From positions 1 through 64,000 of the forward strand of contig JADFHE010000001.1 of assembly GCA_022567295.1 (NCBI GenBank): DNA of 64,000 bases, written 5' to 3'. Shown here in pieces: positions 14,538 through 33,905 of this stretch. A model generated the notes under the pieces. It was not told the origin of the DNA and searched no databases. It saw nothing but the letters and a program-made list of their open reading frames with translations. The position numbers and the translations under genes were made by a program. This DNA is from Pseudomonadota bacterium (GTDB taxonomy: Bacteria > Pseudomonadota > Gammaproteobacteria > Steroidobacterales > Woeseiaceae). The stretch's first letter is position 1, and every line of letters begins with the position of its first letter.

Positions 14538-17057
14538 ATGAGTAGATTAACCTTTGGAACGGTCAGCATAGCCGCAGTGTTTCTGGCAGCAACATTTGGA
14601 ACACCTGGCAGCGTACAGGCCCAGGATTCGGACGCGGCGATTGAAGAAATTATCGTGACGGGTATCGGCTCCCGTAGCAAGCAGCGCTCGAACGTCGACC
14701 TGGCCGTGCCCGTGGACGTGCTCTCGCTAGAGGATATCAATAAGACCGGCCAGATTGACATCGGACAGTCGCTGCACTTTTTGGCGCCGTCTTTTAGCGC
14801 CGTCAAATTCGGCATCAACGACCTCTCGCCGCTCACTGACCCGGCCACCCTGCGCGGGCTGTCGCCGGATCAGACGCTTCTTCTCGTTAATGGCAAGCGG
14901 CGGCATAAGGTGTCGTTCATGAACCTCAACCACGGCCTCGCTAAGGGGCAACTCGGCAACGACATCAACGCCATTCCTGCGGCTGCCATCAAGCAAGTCG
15001 AAATTTTGCGGGACGGTGCTGCGGCGCAGTATGGCTCCGATGCCATCGCCGGCGTAATAAACATGGTACTCAACGACGCCAGCTCGGGCGGCTCTATCCG
15101 GGCCTATACCGGCGTCGCCTACACTGCGCCGGAGTACGATGGTAAGTCGCCCGTTGGCCCGGACGGGCAGGAGATTTACCCCGGCGACTTTGTCACCGAT
15201 GGGGCTACGTACTCCGTCTCCGCCAATTTCGGATTGCCCTGGGGAGACGACGGATTCATTAACACGACCCTTTGGGCGCATCACAACGATGCCTACGATC
15301 GCTCAGGCACCTATACGCACAGCGCGGGCTGGTATCCCGACGATCCGGCCCTGACGCCGGCAGAGAATATCGCCGAAGACGAGCGGTTGCGTATCCTCAA
15401 CGGGATCGACCTGGACCGCGCGATACTCGGGGCGGCTGAGGTCACGAACAGCGGCATTTTCATCAACGCCGGGCGGCCCATGGACGAAGACTGGGACTTC
15501 TACGTCTTTGGCGGTTTCTCCGACAAGGAGGTCATCGGCGGCATTTTCTCACGGGCGGCAGCGCGAACGGACCGGGCCGTCCTGGAGATCTTTCCTAACG
15601 GCTTCAACCCCATAACCCCCGCAGAAATGACCGACTGGCAGATCGTTACGGGCGCACGGGGAGAATTCGGCGAGGGCTGGGGGCTCGATCTCAGCATGGG
15701 CTACAGCGGCAACAAACTCGATTTGTTTAACACCAACACGGTCAACCCCAGCATGGGCGCCGCTTCGCCCACCGAATTCTACACTGGCAGCCTGGAAGTG
15801 ACGCAGACTCTCCTGAATCTGGACGTTACCAAACTCCTTGGCGACGGCAACACAACCCTTGCCGTTGGCACCGAAATCCGCTTCGAAACCTTCGAGCAGA
15901 CGCAGGGGACGGCCGATTCTTGGCGGCCCGGGCCGTTGGCGTTTTTTCCGAACGATCCTAAAAGAGACATCGGCTCCACCGGGCGCGAAGGCTTCTCGGA
16001 CCTTACCCAGGGCAAGTGGGAGCGCAACAATGTCGGTGTCTATGTAGAAGTAGAGAGGGATATCAGCGACGATTTCCTCGTCACGGCGGCGGCGCGGTGG
16101 GAACGCTACTCTGATTTTGGGAGCGACGTCTCGTACAAGCTGGCTAGTCGATACCGGTTCTCAGACAGGTTTTCCCTGCGCGGTTCCGTCAACCGCTCCT
16201 TCCGCGCGATTTCGCTCGCGCAGTATCAATACAGCAACTACGTTAACATCGCCTTCGACAACGCCGGCGACTCGGTCGTGACACCATTCCTGCCGATCAG
16301 GAACCCGCTCGTGCAGTCAGCTTTCGGCATCACCGACCTGGAGCCGGAGACTTCGCTCGACTTCTCCGTCGGGATTACGTCCGAGCTCAGCGACAACCTG
16401 TCGTTTACCGTAGACGCCTACCAGATCGATATCGACGACCGCATCTTGATCTCGGGTGGGATCGGCCTCGCCGCTTTTCCGGAGTTTGCCAATTCCGGCT
16501 ACGACGAGGTCCAAATCTTCTCCAATGCCGTCAACACCAGCACGAAAGGGTTTGATGTGGTGCTCAACTATGTTCAGGAGGTCGGCAATGACGGTCAGCT
16601 GAGCCTGGCGCTGGCGGCCAACTTCAACGATACCGAGGTGGACAGTATCAACGTCCTGCCCGGCCTCACTGAAGGCGACCTCGTCGACGGCAGAGATCTC
16701 GTCTTCATGACCGACGGCGCGCCCAAGCAAAAGGTCATCGTGACGGCCGGCTACCAAGTTGGCAATTTCGACCTGCTGGCGCGCGTAACCAACTTCGGTG
16801 AAGTGAAGGATCCCCGCACAACAAACCTGGCCGGCGACCCGCAGACATTCTCTTCCCAAACCGTTACCGACCTTTCGTTGACAGCCCGTGTCACGGACCA
16901 GTTTTCGGTCACGTTGGGTGTGAATAACGCCTTCGACGTGTACCCCGACATGCTGATTAAACCGCAAGTACGCGGGGAGGTCATCTATTCTCGCCGCACC
17001 AACCAGTTCGGTACCATGGGTCGGTTCGTGAACCTCTCGATGGACTACAACTGGTAA
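14538..17057 (+). CDS. TonB-dependent receptor
   Basis: Signal peptide, EEIIVTGIGSRSKQRSNVDLAVPVDVLS, VEILRDGAAAQYGSDAIAGVIN plug; 839-aa barrel. Confidence 0.93.
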   Translation: MSRLTFGTVSIAAVFLAATFGTPGSVQAQDSDAAIEEIIVTGIGSRSKQRSNVDLAVPVDVLSLEDINKTGQIDIGQSLHFLAPSFSAVKFGINDLSPLTDPATLRGLSPDQTLLLVNGKRRHKVSFMNLNHGLAKGQLGNDINAIPAAAIKQVEILRDGAAAQYGSDAIAGVINMVLNDASSGGSIRAYTGVAYTAPEYDGKSPVGPDGQEIYPGDFVTDGATYSVSANFGLPWGDDGFINTTLWAHHNDAYDRSGTYTHSAGWYPDDPALTPAENIAEDERLRILNGIDLDRAILGAAEVTNSGIFINAGRPMDEDWDFYVFGGFSDKEVIGGIFSRAAARTDRAVLEIFPNGFNPITPAEMTDWQIVTGARGEFGEGWGLDLSMGYSGNKLDLFNTNTVNPSMGAASPTEFYTGSLEVTQTLLNLDVTKLLGDGNTTLAVGTEIRFETFEQTQGTADSWRPGPLAFFPNDPKRDIGSTGREGFSDLTQGKWERNNVGVYVEVERDISDDFLVTAAARWERYSDFGSDVSYKLASRYRFSDRFSLRGSVNRSFRAISLAQYQYSNYVNIAFDNAGDSVVTPFLPIRNPLVQSAFGITDLEPETSLDFSVGITSELSDNLSFTVDAYQIDIDDRILISGGIGLAAFPEFANSGYDEVQIFSNAVNTSTKGFDVVLNYVQEVGNDGQLSLALAANFNDTEVDSINVLPGLTEGDLVDGRDLVFMTDGAPKQKVIVTAGYQVGNFDLLARVTNFGEVKDPRTTNLAGDPQTFSSQTVTDLSLTARVTDQFSVTLGVNNAFDVYPDMLIKPQVRGEVIYSRRTNQFGTMGRFVNLSMDYNW

Positions 17058-17245: not shown

Positions 17246-18244
17246 ATGAGGCTTTCAGAATCTAAGGGTCACCACCGCCGGCAATCAAATCTGATTGCCA
17301 CTTTGCTTTTTCTTGGTATTTTTTTCAGTGCTGGCCAAACTGCGTACGCGGTCGAGCGTCTGCACTTTCTGATTCCGGGTGGCGCTGGTGGCGGCTGGGA
17401 TACAACTGCGCGGGGTGTTGGTGATGCGCTAACACGATCGGGTATTGTGTCGCGTGCATCCTATCAGAACATGTCGGGTGGTGATGGCAGCAAGGCAATT
17501 GCTCACTTGATTGAGTCCGCCGAACGTCAAACTGACACTTTGATGATTAGTTCCACGCCCATTGTTTTAAAGTCTCTCAAGAACATATTTCCCCAGTCCT
17601 ACAAAGATCTGACTCCAGTTGCCGCGGTAATCGCCGACTACGGTGCTTTTGTCGTGAAAACGGATTCTAAATACACGAGTTGGCAGCAGATGATTGACGA
17701 TTTCAGGCTCGATCCGAGAAATGTTCTGGTCGCTGGTGGCTCGGTTTTAGGCGGCATGGATCATGTGGTTGCCGCAATGGCGTTCAAGCAATCAGGCGTT
17801 GACCCTAAATCCATACGCTACATTCCTTACAACGCTGGCGCCAAGGCGATGGTGGGACTGCTTTCCAATGAAACTCAATTACTGTCAACGGGGTTAAGCG
17901 AAGCTCTGGCTTTGGCTGAACAGGGCGAGGTAAGAGTATTGGCCATGACGGCTGCAACTCGTATGGACCACGCCCCTGAGGTACCAACTCTTTCAGAGCA
18001 AGGTGTTGATTTAGTGTTTACGAACTGGCGTGGTTTCTTTGGGGCGCCGGGGCTGTCAGAAAATAAAGTGCGTGAGTTTCAAGAATTACTGCTAAGAATG
18101 TACGACACCAAAGAGTGGGAGGATATTCGTCTCAAACGCGGTTGGACCAATCTCTATATTAGTGGCGACGATTTCATCGAATTTCTAAAAGATCAGGAGA
18201 CAGAGATGGGTTACCTACTGGATGAGCTCGGAATTCGCAGATAG
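17246..18244 (+). CDS. tctC: Tripartite tricarboxylate transporter substrate-binding protein (TctC/Bug family)
   Basis: Signal peptide, RLHFLIPGGAGGGWDTTARGVGDAL...; followed by TctB and TctA. Confidence 0.9.
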   Translation: MRLSESKGHHRRQSNLIATLLFLGIFFSAGQTAYAVERLHFLIPGGAGGGWDTTARGVGDALTRSGIVSRASYQNMSGGDGSKAIAHLIESAERQTDTLMISSTPIVLKSLKNIFPQSYKDLTPVAAVIADYGAFVVKTDSKYTSWQQMIDDFRLDPRNVLVAGGSVLGGMDHVVAAMAFKQSGVDPKSIRYIPYNAGAKAMVGLLSNETQLLSTGLSEALALAEQGEVRVLAMTAATRMDHAPEVPTLSEQGVDLVFTNWRGFFGAPGLSENKVREFQELLLRMYDTKEWEDIRLKRGWTNLYISGDDFIEFLKDQETEMGYLLDELGIRR

Positions 18245-18249
18245 CAGCA

Positions 18250-18738
18250 ATGAATTTCATTAACAATAAAGACAAAGTCGGCAGCAGTATTATCTTGCTG
18301 GTCGCGTTGATTTATCTGAATGCGGCATTCGATATACCGATTATTCAGGTGATGGGTGACGAAGTATTTACGGCGCGAACGCTACCGATCGGTTTGTCGA
18401 TATTAACTATCGTTACCTGCCTGATTCAGATATTTCTTCCTGCCAGTGGCGCGGCGGATGAAACCATATCGAATGCGATCGCCGGCTTTCATTGGAAACC
18501 GTGTTTATTGCTGACCGGACTAATGCTGCTATACAGTCTGTCGTTTAAGATTGTCGGCTTTTCTATCGGTACCTTTCTTTTCCTGTTCATCGGGTTTGCC
18601 ATACTAAAGGAGAAAAGATACTTACTGTCGGCAGCAATCTCGTCAGGGGTAGCTGTATTCATGTGGGTTGTCCTGACCCAGATGTTCGATATCTTTCTTG
18701 ACTCGGGCAGTCTCTATCGTCTGTTGGCAGGAGCGTAG
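18250..18738 (+). CDS. tctB: Tripartite tricarboxylate transporter TctB family protein
   Basis: Four hydrophobic segments between tctC and tctA. Confidence 0.85.
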   Translation: MNFINNKDKVGSSIILLVALIYLNAAFDIPIIQVMGDEVFTARTLPIGLSILTIVTCLIQIFLPASGAADETISNAIAGFHWKPCLLLTGLMLLYSLSFKIVGFSIGTFLFLFIGFAILKEKRYLLSAAISSGVAVFMWVVLTQMFDIFLDSGSLYRLLAGA

Positions 18739-18740
18739 GC

Positions 18741-20264
18741 ATGCTCGACGGTATTTTGCAGGGCTTAAGCACAGCCTTTTTGCCCGTCAACCTGATGTTG
18801 CTTTTTGTGGGTTGTTTTGCCGGTACTTTTATTGGCATGTTGCCTGGATTGGGACCGGTCTCCGCCATTGCGTTGATGATCCCGATTACATACGGATTTG
18901 ATCCTTCATCAGGATTGATATTAATGGCCGGTGTCTATTATGGCGCTGTGTTCGGCGGCTCCACGTCGGCTATTCTCATCAATGCTCCTGGCGTATCCGG
19001 CGCCGTAGCAACGGCTTTTGATGGCTATCCTATGGCGCAGCGCGGCGAAGCCGGTAAAGCACTGGCTCTGGCAGCCTATTCATCGTTCGCCGGCGGTACG
19101 ATAGGGGCTGTTTTTCTCCTCCTCTTTGTGCCAATCCTGGCGAAACTAAGTCTCAGCTTTCAGTCAGCGGATTACTTTGCACTGATGGTGTTTGGACTTT
19201 CTGCCATTACTGCCTTCTCGGGCAAAGGACAGGTAATCAAGGCTGTGCTAATGGCGCTTTTGGGATTGATGTTGGCGACGGTGGGAGAAGATCCATCGGG
19301 TATTCAACGTTTCACGTTTGGTATTACGGATCTGTACGACGGCATCAGTTTCTTATTACTTTCTATGGCGACGTTTGCTATCGCTGAAGCGCTGATGGTC
19401 GTACTACGGCCCAGTCCGCCCAGTAAGGTGGCTAGTGCCGGTAAGCCCACCTTTCAAACTCTGGGTAGCATGAAGCTAAGTAAAGAAGAAATTAAGGACG
19501 TTGCTCCTGTGGTGGCGCGTTCATCAGTACTTGGCTTTTTCGTCGGTGTCTTGCCTGGTGCCGGTGCAACCATTGCGTCTTTTTTGGCCTACGGTATGGA
19601 AAGAAATCTAGCGTCGGCCAAACAGAAACTGGGATTTGGAAAAGGCAGTTTGAGAGGACTGGCCGCACCAGAAACCGCCAACAATGCAGCTTCCACGGGC
19701 TCGTTTGTCCCTTTGCTGACCTTAGGCATTCCTGGTTCCGCAACGACAGCAATTATGCTGGGTGCACTCCTGTCCTATGGCGTTCAGCCTGGGCCACGAC
19801 TTTATATAGATCATCCTGCTGTATTTTGGTCTGTCATTATTTCTATGTACTTGGGCAATATTATTCTGTTGATATTGAATCTTCCGTTAATTCCCTACAT
19901 TTCCAAATTACTCGCTGTTCCCAGGCAGTTCTTGACGCCGATTATTCTGTTCTTGTCACTCATTGGTGTTTACCTGGTGTCATTCAATACGGTTGATCTG
20001 TTCATGATGGTCGTTATTGGAGCGATCGCTGTCGTATTTCGAGTGCTGAATTTTCCATTGGCGCCCCTGTTACTGGGTTTTATTCTCGGTGGCATGATGG
20101 AGGAGAACCTGCGGCGAGCCCTGTTGATTTCGGACGGATCCCTCGAGTTTTTATGGCAAAGGCCCATAACTGCGACAATAATCATTATTACCGTTGCGAC
20201 TGTGCTGATTCCGATCGTGTCCTCCCTGAGAAAAACGAAAGGCAGTCGTGCATTAGATACCTAA
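18741..20264 (+). CDS. tctA: Tripartite tricarboxylate transporter permease TctA
   Basis: GMLPGLGPVSAIALMIPITYGFDPSSGLILMAGVYYGAVFGGSTSAILINAPG. Confidence 0.95.
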   Translation: MLDGILQGLSTAFLPVNLMLLFVGCFAGTFIGMLPGLGPVSAIALMIPITYGFDPSSGLILMAGVYYGAVFGGSTSAILINAPGVSGAVATAFDGYPMAQRGEAGKALALAAYSSFAGGTIGAVFLLLFVPILAKLSLSFQSADYFALMVFGLSAITAFSGKGQVIKAVLMALLGLMLATVGEDPSGIQRFTFGITDLYDGISFLLLSMATFAIAEALMVVLRPSPPSKVASAGKPTFQTLGSMKLSKEEIKDVAPVVARSSVLGFFVGVLPGAGATIASFLAYGMERNLASAKQKLGFGKGSLRGLAAPETANNAASTGSFVPLLTLGIPGSATTAIMLGALLSYGVQPGPRLYIDHPAVFWSVIISMYLGNIILLILNLPLIPYISKLLAVPRQFLTPIILFLSLIGVYLVSFNTVDLFMMVVIGAIAVVFRVLNFPLAPLLLGFILGGMMEENLRRALLISDGSLEFLWQRPITATIIIITVATVLIPIVSSLRKTKGSRALDT

Positions 20265-20316: not shown

Positions 20317-21927
20317 ATGAAATTACTACGCCAGTTTTCCTTGCAGTCAAAGATGATTATCTTCATCGTCGCCCTGGTGCTGTTTCAAACAGGCATCATG
20401 GGCTTCGTGTCGACAAACCTGGTCAACACCATACTTGAAGATCAGTCAGGTAAGCGGGTGCTGGATGTTTCACAAACGATTGCGACCATGCCGGAGGTCG
20501 CCAGGCTACTGGGAGAACAGGATCCCGACGGCAAGCTTCAAGTGTTGGCTGAAGCGATACGCGTAAAAACGGGAGCCCAGTTCGTTGTGATTGGGGACCG
20601 TCAAGGAAGGCGTTATTCCCACCCCGACCCCGAAAAAATCGGCAAAACTATGGTTGGTGGAGACAATGACCTAGCCCTGGAGAATGGTAAGGCCTATATC
20701 TCAAAAGCGGTAGGAACCATGGGTTTATCGTTGCGCGGTAAAGTACCCATATTCGATGCAAACAAAAATATCATCGGAATAGTTTCTGTTGGTTATCTGG
20801 AAGAGAGCATTCACCAGATGATCGTTAGCCGGCGCGCCGTCATTATTACATCCAACGTCATATTGGTGATATTTGGTGTCCTGATTGCAGTGCTACTGGC
20901 CCGCAGTTTCAAGCGTGCCATCTTCGGGCTGGAGCCCCATCAAATTGGCCGCATGTTCCAGGAGAGAAGCGCGATTTTGGGTTCTATTCGTGAAGGTATC
21001 GTTGCGATCAATAAGGATGGTGATATCACCATGATTAACCAGGCTGCGAGAAAGACGCTGGGGCTGAATGCTGATGAGGATTACTTACATCGGCCTATCG
21101 AAAAGGTCGTGCCCGAAACCGGCATTTTGGATGTCTTGCGCACCGGCAAGAGTCAACTGGATCTTGAACACAGAGTCGGCGGCAAGGAGATAATCGTTAA
21201 CCGAATTCCCATTTGGGTTGACAACACAGTGATGGGAGTCGTTTCCAGTTTTCGGGAAAAAGACGAGATTGACTCGCTTGCTAAAGAACTCTCCCAGGTG
21301 CAGGAGTATTCCGACATGCTCCGCCACCAGACGCATGAGTATTCGAACAAACTTCATACTATTTCCGGCCTGATACAGCTAGAGGCCTACGAAAAGGCGA
21401 TTGAGTTAATTGGCAGCGAAACATCGGGATACCAGGATCTACTTCAGTTCTTGGTTTCCGCCGTCCCGGACCCCCTCGTTGCAGGCTGTATTCTGGGGAA
21501 GTACAGCCGTGCCAAGGAACTGAATATCCAGCTGAATGTGGACCGGGACAGCAATTTTGCAGACGTTCCCGATTGGATCAATAAGGAGAAGCTGGTCACT
21601 GTGTTGGGCAACCTGTTGGATAACGCCTATCAGGCGGTAACGCCCTTATCGGAAGATAAACGGGTGGTAAATCTTTCATTAACAGACTTGGGAAACGACT
21701 TGATTTTCGAAGTGGAAGATTCTGGCAATGGAATAGAGGAAGGCCTCGCTGAGCATATATTCGAAAAAGGTGTCTCAAGCAGTGACGAAAAGGGCAAGGG
21801 ATTTGGTTTGTATCTGGTTAAAGATCTGTTGTCCTACGTTAATGGACATATCACTGTAAGCAAGTCCGGCCTGGGCGGTGTGATGTTTACCGTTTATATC
21901 TCAAAAAGGCAGGAAGTCTATGGATAA
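20317..21927 (+). CDS. CitA/DcuS-type sensor histidine kinase
   Basis: N-terminal TM + periplasmic sensor, PAS, QVQEYSDMLRHQTHEYSNKLHTISGLIQL, GNLLDNA...GKGFGLYLVK. Confidence 0.93.
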   Translation: MKLLRQFSLQSKMIIFIVALVLFQTGIMGFVSTNLVNTILEDQSGKRVLDVSQTIATMPEVARLLGEQDPDGKLQVLAEAIRVKTGAQFVVIGDRQGRRYSHPDPEKIGKTMVGGDNDLALENGKAYISKAVGTMGLSLRGKVPIFDANKNIIGIVSVGYLEESIHQMIVSRRAVIITSNVILVIFGVLIAVLLARSFKRAIFGLEPHQIGRMFQERSAILGSIREGIVAINKDGDITMINQAARKTLGLNADEDYLHRPIEKVVPETGILDVLRTGKSQLDLEHRVGGKEIIVNRIPIWVDNTVMGVVSSFREKDEIDSLAKELSQVQEYSDMLRHQTHEYSNKLHTISGLIQLEAYEKAIELIGSETSGYQDLLQFLVSAVPDPLVAGCILGKYSRAKELNIQLNVDRDSNFADVPDWINKEKLVTVLGNLLDNAYQAVTPLSEDKRVVNLSLTDLGNDLIFEVEDSGNGIEEGLAEHIFEKGVSSSDEKGKGFGLYLVKDLLSYVNGHITVSKSGLGGVMFTVYISKRQEVYG

Positions 21928-22615
21928 TTTGAGTGTCGTAATTGCCGAAGATGATCCGAAAATATCTGAGATACAAAGCCGTTTTATCGAGAAAATCGAA
22001 GGATTCGACGTTGTCGGTATTGGTAATACGATCGAGGAGTCGGAACAGATAATTGATGTATTTCAGCCGGACCTGGTGCTATTGGATTATTACTTTCCTG
22101 ATGGCAACGGCGTCGATCTACTGTGGAAAATCAGGCGTTTGTACAAGAATACCGATGTTATTTTTATAACCGCAGCGAAAGAAGTCGGAGTTTTACAGGA
22201 TGCCATTCGTGGCGGTGCGTTTGATTACATTCTAAAGCCCATGACGTTCAGTCGTTTTCAATCGACTTTAGGCAAGTTTCTCGATCACAGAAATAAGATT
22301 GGAGAAATGACCAGGCTTGATCAAACCGGTGTAGATCAGATCATTCATCCGGCTGAGGCTACCGTCCAGACGGACGTCAGAATGCCCAAGAGCATCGATC
22401 CATTGACCCTGGAGAAAGTAGAGGACGAAGTTAACAAGTTAAATGACGATGGAGTTAATGCGGAAGCGATGGGCTTACAGCTTGGTATTAGCCGGACAAC
22501 GGCACGCCGTTATCTTGAGTTCCTGGTGTCAAAGGGCATCGTCAAGCCAAGTTTGGTGTACGGGTCAGTAGGGCGTCCGGAACGCCTGTATTTTCAAGCC
22601 AACAGTAAAACGTAG
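21920..22615 (+). CDS. CitB/DcuR-type response regulator
   Basis: Receiver VVIAEDDPKISEIQSRFIEKI...DLVLLDYYFPDGNG with a C-terminal HTH; overlaps the kinase gene by 8 nt. Confidence 0.92.
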   Translation: MDNLSVVIAEDDPKISEIQSRFIEKIEGFDVVGIGNTIEESEQIIDVFQPDLVLLDYYFPDGNGVDLLWKIRRLYKNTDVIFITAAKEVGVLQDAIRGGAFDYILKPMTFSRFQSTLGKFLDHRNKIGEMTRLDQTGVDQIIHPAEATVQTDVRMPKSIDPLTLEKVEDEVNKLNDDGVNAEAMGLQLGISRTTARRYLEFLVSKGIVKPSLVYGSVGRPERLYFQANSKT

Positions 22616-22634: not shown

Positions 22635-24392
22635 GTGCTGCGTCCTTTCTTGAGAAGACTGCCCGCTGTATCGGTGATATGGATGTTAGCGCTGTCCGCT
22701 GCGTCTTGCGACGGGCCCGCGAATCAGGCTGATCACAATGAACTGGCGACGGAAACCACTCGCGAGGTCAGGGTCATCACGTCCGGCGGGTTTACGGCGG
22801 CGTATAAAGTCCTCGGGCCCGAATTCGAAGCAGCAACCGGTATCAGGCTCGTCACGGCCTACGGCGCTTCATCAGGTGGTGCGGAAGATTCGATTCCATC
22901 GCGATTGTCCCGCGGCGAGCCGGCCGATGTAATCATTCTTTCCCGCTCGTCTCTCGACAATCTCACGGCAGCGGCTGAAGTCGTTGCCGACTCGCGAGTC
23001 GACCTGGTGCGCTCTACGATTGGGATGGCAGTGCAGTCGGGTGCGCCGATGCCCGATATCAGCACGACCGACTCGTTCGTGGCTTCGCTGCTTGCCGCCG
23101 ATTCGATTGGCTACTCTGCGAGCGCCAGCGGAACCTATCTGTCGACGGTGCTGTTTCCGCAACTCGGCATCTGGGAGCAAATAGAAGCAAAGAGCAAAAG
23201 AATCTTAAGTGAGCGAGTTGCGACGGTCGTTGCCAGAGGTGAGGTGCAAATAGGATTTCAACAGATTAGTGAGATTCTGCCTATCGAGGGAATCGACTAC
23301 GTCGGGCCCATTCCAAAAGATGTGCAAAAAGTAACAACGTTTTCGGCAGGTATCACGATGCGCGCCGAAAATTCGGCGGATGCACAGAGACTCATCGATT
23401 TTCTATCCTCGCCAGAAGTGGCCGACACTATTGCGAGTACCGGCCTAGAACCGGTAGCGTCGGCTCGCAAACAGATGTCCGACGACTTTCCAAATCGACC
23501 GGTCACCATTGTTGTTGGTTTCGGTGTTGGCGGTAGCGCCGATCGCATGACTCGTTCTATGTCGAATTTTGTCGGTGAGGAGCTTGGGCAGCCCGTACAA
23601 GTCATCAACAAACGTGGCGCCGGGACGCTACTGGCATCCAATTACGTTCTGAGTCGACCACACGACGGCTACACGATTTACGCGTCCGGGTTCTCACCGT
23701 ATTTGTCGAATTCTATTCTCGAAGGCAATGCGGATTTCACGATCGACGATTTCGCGTATCTCAATTTCCAGTGGTTCGACGAAGACCTCATCGCACTGCA
23801 CAAGGATTCGCAGTACAAGGATTTGCCGGAGCTTCTTGAGGCAATACGGACCCGACCAAAGACAGTACGCGCCTCGGTTGTTCGCGGGTCGGGCGGCCAC
23901 CTGATGGCGAAGTTGCTACTCGAGGTCAACGGCATTCCACAGGAGAATCTGAATCTTGTGACCTATAACGGGGGTGGATTGGCACGGGCGGCTGTCGCTG
24001 GCGGCATCGTGGACTACATCGTGATAAGCGCCGAGGGAACTGAGAGTATTCGTGAATTTATTCGACCGTTAGCAATAGTAAGCGAACAGCGAAATCCCAA
24101 TTGGGATGTGCCGACGCTCAATGTAGCGCTGCAGCCGATGGATATCAGTGTCCCGATCCTGCCCGGAAGCATACGCGGGTTCGCGATGACGGCCGAATTC
24201 AAGCGGAATTATCCGGAGCGATTCAACAAAATTGCGGAGGCGTTCAAGAGGGCGCTGCAAAATGAGGAGCTGCTGGATACTCTCGAACGATCGGCTATCG
24301 GCTCTCGCTGGACCGGTCCGGAGCAGTCGGAAATTACGATGAGAACAACATTCAGCATTTTCGAAGACTACTCGTACCTGTTGAAGTTGTAG
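22635..24392 (+). CDS. Two-domain solute-binding lipoprotein: ModA/PBP2-like N-half + TctC/Bug-like C-half
   Basis: Lipobox-like LAASC; N-half VRVITSGGFTAAYKVLGPEFEAATGIRLVTAYGASSGG; C-half FPNRPVTIVVGFGVGGSADRMTRSMSNFVGEELGQPVQVINKRGAGTLLASNYV. GTG start. Confidence 0.8.
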   Translation: MLRPFLRRLPAVSVIWMLALSAASCDGPANQADHNELATETTREVRVITSGGFTAAYKVLGPEFEAATGIRLVTAYGASSGGAEDSIPSRLSRGEPADVIILSRSSLDNLTAAAEVVADSRVDLVRSTIGMAVQSGAPMPDISTTDSFVASLLAADSIGYSASASGTYLSTVLFPQLGIWEQIEAKSKRILSERVATVVARGEVQIGFQQISEILPIEGIDYVGPIPKDVQKVTTFSAGITMRAENSADAQRLIDFLSSPEVADTIASTGLEPVASARKQMSDDFPNRPVTIVVGFGVGGSADRMTRSMSNFVGEELGQPVQVINKRGAGTLLASNYVLSRPHDGYTIYASGFSPYLSNSILEGNADFTIDDFAYLNFQWFDEDLIALHKDSQYKDLPELLEAIRTRPKTVRASVVRGSGGHLMAKLLLEVNGIPQENLNLVTYNGGGLARAAVAGGIVDYIVISAEGTESIREFIRPLAIVSEQRNPNWDVPTLNVALQPMDISVPILPGSIRGFAMTAEFKRNYPERFNKIAEAFKRALQNEELLDTLERSAIGSRWTGPEQSEITMRTTFSIFEDYSYLLKL

Positions 24393-24399
24393 ATTTGAA

Positions 24400-24867
24400 A
24401 TGTCCTCAACCGCTGAAAAAAAGAACAAATACCGCGTCGCTGATCTGGCCGTATTGCTGGTCCTGGCGAGTCTCGTTGTCTTGTACGGCATCGATGCGTA
24501 CAGAGCTTCCAGCGATGTCCTGAACCTGATCCTGGTACTGCCGATTATCGTGATGGTACTGGTGCTGTGTCTGGTCCAGTTCGTTATCGAGTTGAGAGAT
24601 GACAGGGCGGAGGCGCCGCCACGAGAAAGCGTTGCCGATGTCGCGCCGGTCATTGGCTTGTTTGCGGTCTACGTTCTGACTCTGCAGTGGCTTGGTTTTG
24701 ATATCGGCACGATGCTGTTCGTGGCCGCTTTTCTCTGGCTCCAGGGTGAGCGTCGCTGGCACTGGCTCATTGGGTATTCGATCAGTCTGAGTTTCGGATT
24801 GGCGTTGTTCTTCTCAACGATGTTGCCGTACCCAATGCCGATGCTGATCCTGCAAACCGCGTACTGA
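24400..24867 (+). CDS. TctB family protein
   Basis: Hydrophobic ~155 aa protein directly upstream of a TctA. Confidence 0.8.
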   Translation: MSSTAEKKNKYRVADLAVLLVLASLVVLYGIDAYRASSDVLNLILVLPIIVMVLVLCLVQFVIELRDDRAEAPPRESVADVAPVIGLFAVYVLTLQWLGFDIGTMLFVAAFLWLQGERRWHWLIGYSISLSFGLALFFSTMLPYPMPMLILQTAY

Positions 24868-24876
24868 GATGGCGAG

Positions 24877-26376
24877 ATGATTGACTGGACATCACTCTTC
24901 GCTGCTTTCGATCTGCTGTTCTCCAGCATCGATCCTTGGTTAGTCGTTGTCCCCGGCATTCTCATCGGTTTGCTGTTCGGTGCGATACCGGGACTGCAGA
25001 TATCCATGGCCATGGCGATTTTCCTGCCAATGACGCTCTACATGGATTTCATGCAGGCCATGCTTTTTCTCACAGCGATATTCACCGGCGGCACTTTCGG
25101 TGGCAGCATCCCAGCCGTGCTGATGAATATTCCAGGCACATCGTCGGCGATTGCGACGGCATTTGACGGCTACCCGATGTCGAAAAAGGGCCAACACAAC
25201 ACGGCGCTGGGTATCGCCCTGGGCGCTTCGTGCATTGGTGTGCTCGCAGGCTACGGCATCCTGTTTCTGCTGATTGGGCCGATTTCAACGATGGTGCTCA
25301 AAATAGGTCCGGCGGAGATGGCTGCGGTCATCCTGTGGGGCATAACGCTGATTGGCAGTCTCAGCAGCGGCAGCGTGTTGAAAGGCATCATCTCAGGTCT
25401 GATAGGCCTGCTGATCGGCACGATAGGCTTCAGCGAAGCCGGCGTGTTACGGGGCACCATGGGTAGCGTTTATCTCATCGACGGCGTGCCGGCCATACCG
25501 GCGATGATCGGCATGTTTGCCGCCTCTGAGCTGTTTCGACTGGTAAAAACGAAGTACCTGGTCGAGGACAGCGCCGCGCGCAAGGTCAGTGCCCGAGCCA
25601 TTTTTGACGGATTCCTCAAAGCCTTCAGCTACCCGTGGATCCTGGCGCGCGGAAGTCTTATCGGGGTGTTCGTCGGCGCGGTGCCCGGAGTGGGCTCGTC
25701 GGTTGCAAATCTTCTGTCTTATATTGCCACCAAGAATCGCGATCCGGACCCGGACTCCTTCGGCAAGGGCAACCCGGCCGGCGTGGTCGCCTCGGAGGCC
25801 GCAAACAGCACCTCTGAGGCTGGTTCCATGGCGACACTTCTCGCTTTGGGTATTCCCGGTGGCGGTGCGACCGCGGTCATGCTGGCCGCATTCGCAATGC
25901 ACAACATTACGGGTGGTCCGCAGTTTATCCGGGAACAGACAGACGTGGTGTACGCGATTATTTTCGCCAATTTTGGTCAGGCATTCCTGCTGATTGCGCT
26001 CGGGCTGATGTTCATTCCGATATTGGCAAACGTGGTTAAGGTGCCGATGACTTACCTGGTACCCACCGTCCTGGCGATGGCCGTGTTCGGCGCCTTCGGC
26101 TTAACCGGAGACTTGTCCGGGCCAGTTACTGTATTGGTTTTCTCGGTGGTTGGATGGCTGTTCAAGCGTTTCGACTACTCAGTCCCGGCCGCGGTAATTG
26201 GCATTCTACTCGGCGGCATGGCGGAAGACTCCATCATTTATTCGTATCAAATCAGCGGGGGTCAGTGGAGTTATGTTCTGGAACGTCCGATCACACTCGT
26301 GATTCTGATGTTGCTTCTCCTGTCCCTGTTCGGCAGCAAACTTCTGGGCTTACTGACGAGACGGGCAAGCAGTTGA
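24877..26376 (+). CDS. Tripartite tricarboxylate transporter permease TctA family
   Basis: LLFGAIPGLQISMAMAIFLPMTLYMDFMQAMLFLTAIFTGGTFGGSIPAVLMNIPGTSSAIATAFDGYPM. Confidence 0.94.
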   Translation: MIDWTSLFAAFDLLFSSIDPWLVVVPGILIGLLFGAIPGLQISMAMAIFLPMTLYMDFMQAMLFLTAIFTGGTFGGSIPAVLMNIPGTSSAIATAFDGYPMSKKGQHNTALGIALGASCIGVLAGYGILFLLIGPISTMVLKIGPAEMAAVILWGITLIGSLSSGSVLKGIISGLIGLLIGTIGFSEAGVLRGTMGSVYLIDGVPAIPAMIGMFAASELFRLVKTKYLVEDSAARKVSARAIFDGFLKAFSYPWILARGSLIGVFVGAVPGVGSSVANLLSYIATKNRDPDPDSFGKGNPAGVVASEAANSTSEAGSMATLLALGIPGGGATAVMLAAFAMHNITGGPQFIREQTDVVYAIIFANFGQAFLLIALGLMFIPILANVVKVPMTYLVPTVLAMAVFGAFGLTGDLSGPVTVLVFSVVGWLFKRFDYSVPAAVIGILLGGMAEDSIIYSYQISGGQWSYVLERPITLVILMLLLLSLFGSKLLGLLTRRASS

Positions 26377-27116
26377 TTGCCGACCTGTCGCTGCTGGTGC
26401 TTGCTTTCGTGTTGCTAGCGTCGTTCGCGACCGCCGTTTTGCACGGCGCGATTGGCATGGCGGGCGGCGTAATTATGGCCGCGATCCTCTCGCATTTTAT
26501 GAGTATCAAGTCTGCTGTTCCGGTGATGACCTGCGCGTTGATCATCAGTCACTTTAGTCGCGCAATCATGTATTTCCGTGATACCGACTGGAAAATCACG
26601 TTTCGTGTGCTGTTGTTCGGCTGTCCCACGATCGTCATTGGCGCACTGATATTCAGCGTCATCAGTCCCAGGGCGATCGCAATTGTTTTCGCGGCGTTTT
26701 TGATTGCGTCGTTTCCGATCAAATACTGGGCACGGAAACATCAAATTACCACCGGCCCCAAGCTGCTTGCCGGTGCCAGCGCGATTTGGGGCATGCTCGC
26801 GGGCAACGTCATCGGACCGGCCTTTTTCCTGGCCCCTTTTCTGTTGGGCACCGGGATGAATCGAATGGTGTTTGCGGGAACGCTCGCCAGCATCACGTTT
26901 GTTATGAATGTCCTGAAACTAAGCGTATTCGGAGCGACAGAGCTAATTACCGGCGAGTTGTTGCTGCTTGGGGTCCTGATCGGCGTAATGACCATCCCGG
27001 GAAACTGGGTAGGTCGCTCGATACTCAAGAAAATGCAGGACAGCGAGCATCGATTGATCATCGACATTTTAACGGTATTGATGATCGCAAACTTTATTTA
27101 TCTCGCCGCTAAATGA
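26373..27116 (+). CDS. TauE/SafE-type sulfite exporter/permease family protein
   Basis: Multi-TM; LASFATAVLHGAIGMAGGVIMAAILSHF. Start inferred as TTG at 26373 (TTGA overlap with the tctA stop), not 26154. Confidence 0.75.
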   Translation: MIADLSLLVLAFVLLASFATAVLHGAIGMAGGVIMAAILSHFMSIKSAVPVMTCALIISHFSRAIMYFRDTDWKITFRVLLFGCPTIVIGALIFSVISPRAIAIVFAAFLIASFPIKYWARKHQITTGPKLLAGASAIWGMLAGNVIGPAFFLAPFLLGTGMNRMVFAGTLASITFVMNVLKLSVFGATELITGELLLLGVLIGVMTIPGNWVGRSILKKMQDSEHRLIIDILTVLMIANFIYLAAK

Positions 27117-28591
27117 TGAGAATACTTATTGCAGGCAGTGGCAATGCGGCACTTTGTGCGGGAATAGCGGCGCTCGAGCGAGGGGCAGACGTATTAATAC
27201 TGGAAAAGGCGTGCGCCGACGAGGCAGGCGGCAATAGCCGCTACACGGCCGGGGCGATGCGCTTCGCGTACGAGTCCCGCGACGAGCTGCTTCCTTTGTT
27301 GCGCAATCCTGCAGGCGAAGCATTTGATCGTGCTGATTTCGGATCCTATACGCGAAATGATTTTGCGCATGACCTGCGTAATTTCAATGACGGCAAGCCG
27401 CTAAATTATTTGCAGGACACGCTGGTCGACGAGAGCTACGACACGATGTTGTGGCTCAGTCGTCACAATATCGGTTTCGATCCAATCTACTCGCGGCAGG
27501 CATTTCAGAAAGACGGCAGGTACGTGTTCTGGGGCGGCCTCGTACTTGAAGCGCACGGGGAGGGAGTCGGTCTTGTTGCGGCCGAAACACGGGAATTTCT
27601 ACGGTTGGGTGGAAAGATTCAGTATGACTGTGAATGCCGGGAGCTTGTCATTGACGATTCTGGTATCCGTGGTGTGATTTGCATGTCGCCCACCGGCCAG
27701 ATCACTCTGGACGCCGATGCCGTTGTACTGGGTTGCGGTGGTTTTGAGGCGAGCAAGGAAATGCGACGCCAGTACATGGGTGACAAGTGGGTCAATGCAA
27801 AAGTCAGAGGCACCCGGCACAACACTGGAGCCGGTATCGAGATGGCTTTGGCAGTTGGCGCAGAGATGGAGGGCCGGTCTGACGGCTGTCATGCGGTGCC
27901 AATGGATCTTCACATGCCGGATTTCGGAAATACAGAACTGCCTTTTATCGAACGAAAAAACTATCGGAAGATCTGTTACTTCCTCGGGATAATGCTGAAC
28001 GCGAAGGGAGAACGATTCGTTGACGAAGGCGAGAATTATCGAAACTACACCTATGCACAGTTTGGCCGCGAAATCCTGAACCAGCCGCAAGGAATTGCCT
28101 GGCAGTTGTTCGACAAGCAGGTGGATGCTCTGCTGTACGACGAGTACCGGTTTGCAGAGGCCAGCTTTGTCGAGGCGGACACGCTGGTCGATCTGACATC
28201 GAAGCTTGACGGTGTCGACGCGCAAAGGGCACTGCACACGATTCAAGAGTTCAACGCGGCAGTTGACCCGGCCAACGCGTTTGATCCAACGATCCTGGAT
28301 GGGCGCTGTACTAGCGGCCTCGCGGTCGATAAAACAAACTGGGCTAACAGGCTGGACGAACCGCCATTTAAGGCGTTTCCGGTCACCTGTGGAATAACGT
28401 TTACCTACGCAGGATTGCGTGTCGACAGGAGCGCAGCGGTTCTCAATCGTGAGGGGATGAAAATTCCGGGGCTCTATGCCTGCGGGGAAATGATAGGAGG
28501 CATATTCTCTGCGGGCTACCCCGGTGGCTCCGGGTTGACCTCAGGCGCCGTATTTGGCCGAATCGCTGGACAATCCGCGGCACAGATCTGA
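27113..28591 (+). CDS. FAD-dependent tricarballylate dehydrogenase-like (TcuA family)
   Basis: MMRILIAGSGNAALCAGIAALERGADVLILEKACADEAGGNSRYTAGAMRFAY; GCGGFEASKEMRRQYMG. Confidence 0.82.
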   Translation: MMRILIAGSGNAALCAGIAALERGADVLILEKACADEAGGNSRYTAGAMRFAYESRDELLPLLRNPAGEAFDRADFGSYTRNDFAHDLRNFNDGKPLNYLQDTLVDESYDTMLWLSRHNIGFDPIYSRQAFQKDGRYVFWGGLVLEAHGEGVGLVAAETREFLRLGGKIQYDCECRELVIDDSGIRGVICMSPTGQITLDADAVVLGCGGFEASKEMRRQYMGDKWVNAKVRGTRHNTGAGIEMALAVGAEMEGRSDGCHAVPMDLHMPDFGNTELPFIERKNYRKICYFLGIMLNAKGERFVDEGENYRNYTYAQFGREILNQPQGIAWQLFDKQVDALLYDEYRFAEASFVEADTLVDLTSKLDGVDAQRALHTIQEFNAAVDPANAFDPTILDGRCTSGLAVDKTNWANRLDEPPFKAFPVTCGITFTYAGLRVDRSAAVLNREGMKIPGLYACGEMIGGIFSAGYPGGSGLTSGAVFGRIAGQSAAQI

Positions 28592-29035: not shown

Positions 29036-29773
29036 TTAGGGGAACGATTTTAGGCCCCACCCGTCGATCTTGCCACTCTCGCTTTGTCGAAATTTCTCCT
29101 TCACAACGTCATATGCCGGGTTCGGATCATTCGGTCTAATAGTTCGTCTACCGATTGGGTAAGCAACCAAATCCGCCAGTTGCATGCCGGTGGAATTGGT
29201 TTGTTTGCTGGCGAACTCGATATCGAACGGCATATTTCCGTCAAACCAGTTTCCGCCCGAGATCACGCGCAAGAATGCCAACTCTAATTCGTTGTCTTCC
29301 TTTTTGCCCCGGCATTCAAAGCAAATCGTTGTACGATTCTCGTTCTGTCCGAGGTCCTGCAAAAACCTGTACGTCCGCTCGAGGCAGAAAACCATGGCAA
29401 TGTCATACGGATTGGCCGGGTAAGCGTATTGCTCCTTGAGTTTATTCTTGTCGATAACGGCAGCAATTAGAGTAAACGGTGCATTGGTGATTTCAGTAGT
29501 AAGCGCAGCCATGAATCTCTTGCGCACCTGACTGTTTTGCAATATCGAGAATTCCTTCTTCGCCTTACGAATGTTATGGCTGTGCAATACGACCAGATCA
29601 TGACCAAAAAAATCGAATTTCAACCGCTGGAAGGCGGGGACGATAGTATCGGTGTAAGCGGATTTCTCGAAAATGCAGAAAGCCAGGACGAATACCGGGT
29701 ATTGCGGATCGATACTGACCAGCCCGTGGTCGCCGCTTTCGTCTACGTAGACGATGTAGTCGCTAAACCCCAT
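29036..29773 (-). CDS. DUF3800 domain protein
   Basis: YIVYVDESGDHGL... start, D/E-rich conserved positions, SKQTNSTGMQLADLVAYPIGR end motif. Confidence 0.8.
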   Translation of the reverse strand: MGFSDYIVYVDESGDHGLVSIDPQYPVFVLAFCIFEKSAYTDTIVPAFQRLKFDFFGHDLVVLHSHNIRKAKKEFSILQNSQVRKRFMAALTTEITNAPFTLIAAVIDKNKLKEQYAYPANPYDIAMVFCLERTYRFLQDLGQNENRTTICFECRGKKEDNELELAFLRVISGGNWFDGNMPFDIEFASKQTNSTGMQLADLVAYPIGRRTIRPNDPNPAYDVVKEKFRQSESGKIDGWGLKSFP

Positions 29774-32555: not shown

Positions 32556-32632
32556 TGGCGCGCCCGGAGAGATTCGAACTCCCGACCGCTCGGTTCGTAG
32601 CCGAGTACTCTATCCAGCTGAGCTACGGGCGC
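32556..32632 (-). tRNA. tRNA-Arg(ACG)
   Basis: Minus strand GCGCCCGTAGCTCAGCTGGATAGAGTACTCGGCTACGAACCGAGCGGTCGGGAGTTCGAATCTCTCCGGGCGCGCCA; complete cloverleaf elements. Confidence 0.97.
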
Positions 32633-33814: not shown

Positions 33815-33905
33815 TGGCGGAGAGAGAGGGATTCGAACCCTCGAAGGGGTTTTAGCCCTTACTCCCTTAGCAGGGGAGCGCTTTCGACCACTCAGCCATC
33901 TCTCC
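33815..33905 (-). tRNA. tRNA-Ser(GCT)
   Basis: Minus strand GGAGAGATGGCTGAGTGGTCGAAAGCGCTCCCCTGCTAAGGGAGTAAGGGC...GGTTCGAATCCCTCTCTCTCCGCCA, with a long variable arm. Confidence 0.97.

Follow-up and report, generated by a model that had tools for sequence, protein, structure and literature searches.

The aconitate isomerase Ais of Pseudomonas sp. WU-0701, reported in FEBS J in 2015, is said to be a monomer of ~25 kDa that carries a signal peptide and is most like 'molybdenum ABC transporter substrate-binding proteins'. Aconitate and 4-oxalomesaconate are similar unsaturated tricarboxylates, and enzymes of the PrpF family act on both aconitate-type and 4-oxalomesaconate-type acids. Action of PrpF on aconitates has been described (PMC5690661), and the 4-oxalomesaconate tautomerase step has been assigned to ligU, pmdU or galD (PMC12314914). 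The WU-0701 study is referenced in PMC11495376 and PMC13188880; according to the former, the isomerase equilibrium favours trans-aconitate, and Pantoea agglomerans and Serratia marcescens grow on trans-aconitate without a TarA homologue (PMC11495376), which leaves room, and indeed a need, for another class of isomerase. As for import, the review of tripartite tricarboxylate transporters (PMC5812351) describes TctA–TctB fusions only, and no fusion of TctC is found in it. Here we analysed a gene within a stretch of 64,000 nucleotides (the window) from a marine bacterium of the Woeseiaceae, in which a ModA-like domain is joined to TctC.

A two-domain gene in a tricarboxylate transport island

The fusion gene is a single uninterrupted ORF with a GTG start and no internal stops, encoding 585 amino acids (Table 1); the response regulator gene precedes it, and tctB and tctA follow. 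Pfam assigned SBP_bac_11 (PF13531) to residues 45–271 (E 1.2e-36, 127 bits against a gathering score of 25) and TctC (PF03401) to residues 307–552 (E 8.6e-14, 52.1 bits against a gathering score of 27). The first-pass annotation had proposed a ModA/PBP2-like and a TctC-like domain in one chain, at the place of a tctC directly before tctB and tctA; the Pfam-assigned gene order agrees with this, and the domain split returned two binding-protein domains rather than one. The C-half, which exceeds the gathering score of the TctC/Bug receptor family and whose coding sequence lies directly before tctB and tctA, is the TctC receptor belonging to the neighbouring TctAB transporter. The protein is present in one copy in the genome. 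Its N-terminus, MLRPFLRRLPAVSVIWMLALSAASC-D, reads as a lipoprotein-like signal (LALSAAS-C-D), and most unfused relatives of the N-half also have signals ending in Cys, in agreement with the earlier claim of a lipoprotein; we consider it probable that the protein is exported and lipid-anchored.

In the AlphaFold2 model, built with 26 aligned sequences, both halves form well-folded domains of the type-2 binding-protein kind (mean pLDDT 87.4), but their placement relative to each other is not reliable because the pTM is low (0.66). Foldseek placed the C-half among TctC proteins (4x9t, TM 0.83 by target); for the N-half, it gave ModA proteins (6nio, TM 0.86 by target).

A gene of the TauE/SafE family stands after tctA not only here but also in most related islands. 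The TcuA of the window is only ~32% identical to the TcuA that accompanies TcuB, and a search of the window's genome (86% complete) found no TcuB.

Table 1. Position, strand and basis of assignment of the features in and around the island
Feature	Position	Strand	Basis or remark
TonB-dependent receptor, upstream of the island	14538..17057	+	TonB receptors also near L034, L036, L042 and L046
First, unfused tctC-tctB-tctA set of the island	17246..20264	+	Pfam; same layout in L033
DcuS/DpiB-like sensor kinase with Cache domain	20317..21927	+	Profile matches
DpiA/DcuR-like response regulator	21920..22615	+	Profile matches
Fusion gene: lipoprotein signal, ModA-like domain, linker, TctC domain	22635..24392	+	ORF, Pfam, AlphaFold2
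Signal with lipobox-like end SAAS-C, Asp after Cys	22635..22712	+	Sequence; Cys-ending signals in most relatives
N-half: SBP_bac_11/ModA-like domain with QQxSE; proposed aconitate isomerase	22752..23474	+	Pfam, alignments, Foldseek
C-half: TctC solute receptor domain without own signal peptide	23475..24389	+	Pfam, relatives, Foldseek
tctB, small membrane subunit	24400..24867	+	PF07331, E 2e-13
tctA, large membrane subunit	24877..26376	+	PF01970, E 2.5e-118
TauE/SafE-family membrane protein	26376..27116	+	PF01925, E 3e-26
FAD-dependent tricarballylate dehydrogenase TcuA, divergent	27113..28591	+	NF006130, 542 bits, cut-off 369
DUF3800 protein, after the island	29036..29773	-	Side observation
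Two tRNA genes	32559..32632; 33818..33905		Side observation

Fused and separate forms of the two halves

Both halves were present in 12 loci (numbered with L, except for the window), fused in three of them (the window, L031 and L038) and encoded by two adjacent genes in the other nine (L032–L035, L037, L041, L042, L044 and L046). The architecture is as uncommon as had been supposed, and the fusion joins two genes that elsewhere are neighbours. The search for it in other genomes, proposed in the first-pass annotation, yielded the two further fused forms, both in Woeseia-type genomes and with ~65–72% identity per half; in L033 the island is arranged as in the window, but the halves are unfused. 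The TctC gene carries its own signal peptide in 9/9 unfused loci, whereas in the three fused ones both the stop and the TctC signal peptide have been lost and the domains are connected by a short linker. In the window, the stretch matching the inter-gene signal peptide of the relatives is the linker LEPVASARKQMSDDFP, which, together with the signal peptide between the halves of the nine relatives, rules out two genes with a missed stop.

When the fused forms were compared, non-synonymous changes reached 0.11–0.23 per site, far less than the near-saturated synonymous ones, in both halves, indicating that both are under purifying selection. In a two-domain tree, L031 and L038 grouped with unfused loci (99/99 and 100/99 support) while the window branched outside, and a single clade for all three fused forms was rejected (AU p = 0.011). 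The tree suggests that the fusion probably arose twice, independently; this is the simplest account, because a reversal would need the signal peptide to be re-created. The cluster is accessory within the genus, being present in 3 of 73 genomes, the window's own included.

Other joined frames were observed near these loci. At L037 (6639–8726), the N-half module occurs in another kind of fusion: a frame of ~700 aa, beside an independent TctC gene, joins it to the C-terminal end of an amidohydrolase-family domain. L035 (4547–6583) has an AtuA domain and DUF4387 in one frame near the island, and frames of similar size, by size comparison, lie near the island in L041 and L044. In L129, an open frame of 610 aa had suggested a fusion of an N-half homologue with TcuC, but the two turned out to be adjacent genes.

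Neighbouring genes of the N-half family

The fused form L038 is followed, after the island, by TcuA and TcuB, and both are also nearby in Colwellia (L032). Homologues of the N-half adjoin TcuC (E 1e-197 to 1e-230) in Paraburkholderia, Burkholderia, Cronobacter, Klebsiella, Acinetobacter, Pantoea and Sphingomonas, the row in A. baumannii being TcuC, homologue, LysR, TcuA and TcuB; in Comamonas and Cupriavidus they adjoin a TctC gene, in differing orders. A relative of the C-half in Roseibium (42%) stands in the row tctC-tctB-tctA-acnA, with the aconitase AcnA. The N-half thus belongs to a ModA-like family that often occurs with aconitate and tricarballylate genes, not with molybdate genes.

In an even draw of the phylum (399 genomes), 44 had an N-half homologue at E <= 1e-30, and among the 40 loci inspected TcuC was adjacent in 10, TcuAB was present in one and LigJ/LigK in four, most others having no such neighbour; a recognised tricarboxylate gene was absent nearby in roughly half of the sampled homologues. 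Several homologues with 47–60% identity stand beside an unrelated-looking PHB depolymerase, xanthine permease or Band 7 gene, and that of L065 adjoins an ABC permease and ATPase. Because so many homologues are without such neighbours, the family is not of one function. Support from the Cronobacter phenotype table was mixed: plasmid pESA3 carries tcuC and an N-half-like gene as a pair, yet the record for C. sakazakii on trans-aconitate is negative (PMC4179279), so that the genes alone do not predict growth.

A second setting is the protocatechuate 4,5-cleavage cluster, where a QQxSE homologue lies near LigJ (4-oxalomesaconate hydratase) and LigK in six loci (L058, L059, L133, L141, L142 and L144), plainly without a signal peptide in L058 and L059. 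A cytosolic homologue of this fold in a lignin-acid cluster cannot be a periplasmic receptor. The step missing from these clusters is the 4-oxalomesaconate tautomerase, and in genome G204 (given as 100% complete), where the homologue occupies the tautomerase place, no PrpF/GalD-type protein was found. In Neorhizobium (L066, 1490–6708), a homologue annotated as modA is near galB (4-oxalomesaconate hydratase) and ligK, a context that suggests an isomerase rather than a molybdate function. A further signal-less homologue, at L137 (6027–6716), has no evident pathway context, and its neighbour has Sel1-like repeats.

A putative aconitate isomerase tethered to a receptor

Our preferred reading, which we hold to be rather probable, is that the N-half is a periplasmic aconitate isomerase of the Ais type, tethered to the TctC receptor that feeds its product to TctAB. 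As is reportedly the case for Ais, the N-half is an exported ModA-like domain of ~25 kDa, and its family is encoded with aconitate and tricarballylate genes; the PF04303 domain of PrpF-type isomerases (TarA/TbrA) is absent from the fusion protein, and no match to this type was found in the window's own genome. In the periplasm, the N-half would turn trans-aconitate into its cis isomer, and might act in the same way on similar unsaturated tricarboxylates; the tethered TctC half would capture the cis product and pass it to TctAB for import, and the lipid anchor would keep both halves near the membrane. In the cytosol, cis-aconitate would enter the TCA cycle via aconitase, and TcuA would feed tricarballylate into the same pool. 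With the equilibrium of the reaction on the side of trans-aconitate, a physical link between enzyme and receptor would help to draw the product into the cell, and the fusion may, speculatively, serve its immediate removal. The wider proposal, that a binding-protein-fold isomerase was twice independently fused to a tricarboxylate receptor, giving one protein that both converts an unusable isomer and hands it over for uptake, has in our estimate an even chance of being right.

Two other explanations are very improbable. The genome to which the window belongs is a draft of 82 contigs, in which an assembly or sequencing artefact could have removed a stop, but two other genomes carry the fusion, the TctC signal peptide is missing and not merely read through, and purifying selection acts on both halves. 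Capture of a molybdate-binding ModA by the transport operon would account for the fold and the distant sequence similarity of the N-half, which does resemble type 2 periplasmic binding proteins as first annotated; molybdate binding itself is made unlikely by the score against the ModA model TIGR01256 (43.7 bits, below the cut-off of 62.5), by the replacement of two ligand positions and by the lack of modBC among the examined genes around the fusion. Ser12 and Tyr170 (E. coli numbering), molybdate ligands of ModA, are replaced in the N-half by Gly and Gln, respectively; most members of the family share the Gly and all aligned homologues the Gln, Ser39 is conserved in the alignment, and the family signature is GFQQxSE. 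PDB entries 8zj6–8zja represent ModA of A. baumannii rather than an isomerase.

The idea of dual substrate capture put forward in the first-pass annotation fared less well than that of enzyme plus receptor. On such a reading neither half is catalytic, and the N-half binds either the same tricarboxylate or another one and passes it on to TctC/TctAB, like the tandem domains of some ABC importers; both halves have binding-protein folds, the gene occupies the tctC place, and Foldseek also gave a match to the tandem SBD1–SBD2 of GlnPQ (6h30). We nevertheless regard it as unlikely, because many relatives of the N-half track genes for aconitate, tricarballylate or 4-oxalomesaconate and some are signal-less proteins inside cytosolic catabolic pathways; moreover, unfused relatives occur beside TcuC, which as a symporter does not require a binding protein. 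Less probable still is an isomerase whose substrate is not aconitate but a different unsaturated tricarboxylate, for instance 2-methylaconitate or a related plant or lignin acid. The genes downstream in L041 (citrate synthase and a member of the PEP mutase/isocitrate lyase family), a PrpD-family gene near L037 and the relatives in a 4-oxalomesaconate context agree with such a substrate, but many relatives occur with TcuA, TcuB or TcuC, and AcnA stands in the row with the C-half relative.

Under the reading of a tethered aconitate isomerase, the neighbourhoods suggest that many genes that lie next to tricarboxylate genes and carry the annotation of a 'molybdate-like' or generic substrate-binding protein, among them those of Klebsiella, Cronobacter, Acinetobacter and Pantoea, may encode isomerases. 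This, if true, would help to explain trans-aconitate users without a TarA-type enzyme, and the fusion would offer a natural test of whether joining in the periplasm benefits catalysis and solute capture.

Among known systems, ModA shares the fold of the N-half, which differs from it in the two replaced ligand positions, the score below the cut-off and the lack of modBC among the genes examined nearby. GlnPQ likewise combines two tandem domains of binding-protein fold in a single transport chain, but it is an ABC importer whose two receptors are of one class and attached to the permease. In the protocatechuate 4,5-cleavage operons, the place of a PmdU-type tautomerase is taken by signal-less QQxSE homologues, which are likened to PmdU by gene position and, unlike the fusion, are cytosolic and unfused. 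The TctABC transporter is matched by the TctC domain, TctB and TctA in order, except that the TctC of the window carries an additional domain at its N-terminus and no longer has a signal of its own. Ais, as reported, is alike in being ModA-like, ~25 kDa, exported and set among aconitate and tricarballylate functions, but it is a free monomer, whereas the domain in the window is predicted to be lipid-anchored and is fused to TctC.
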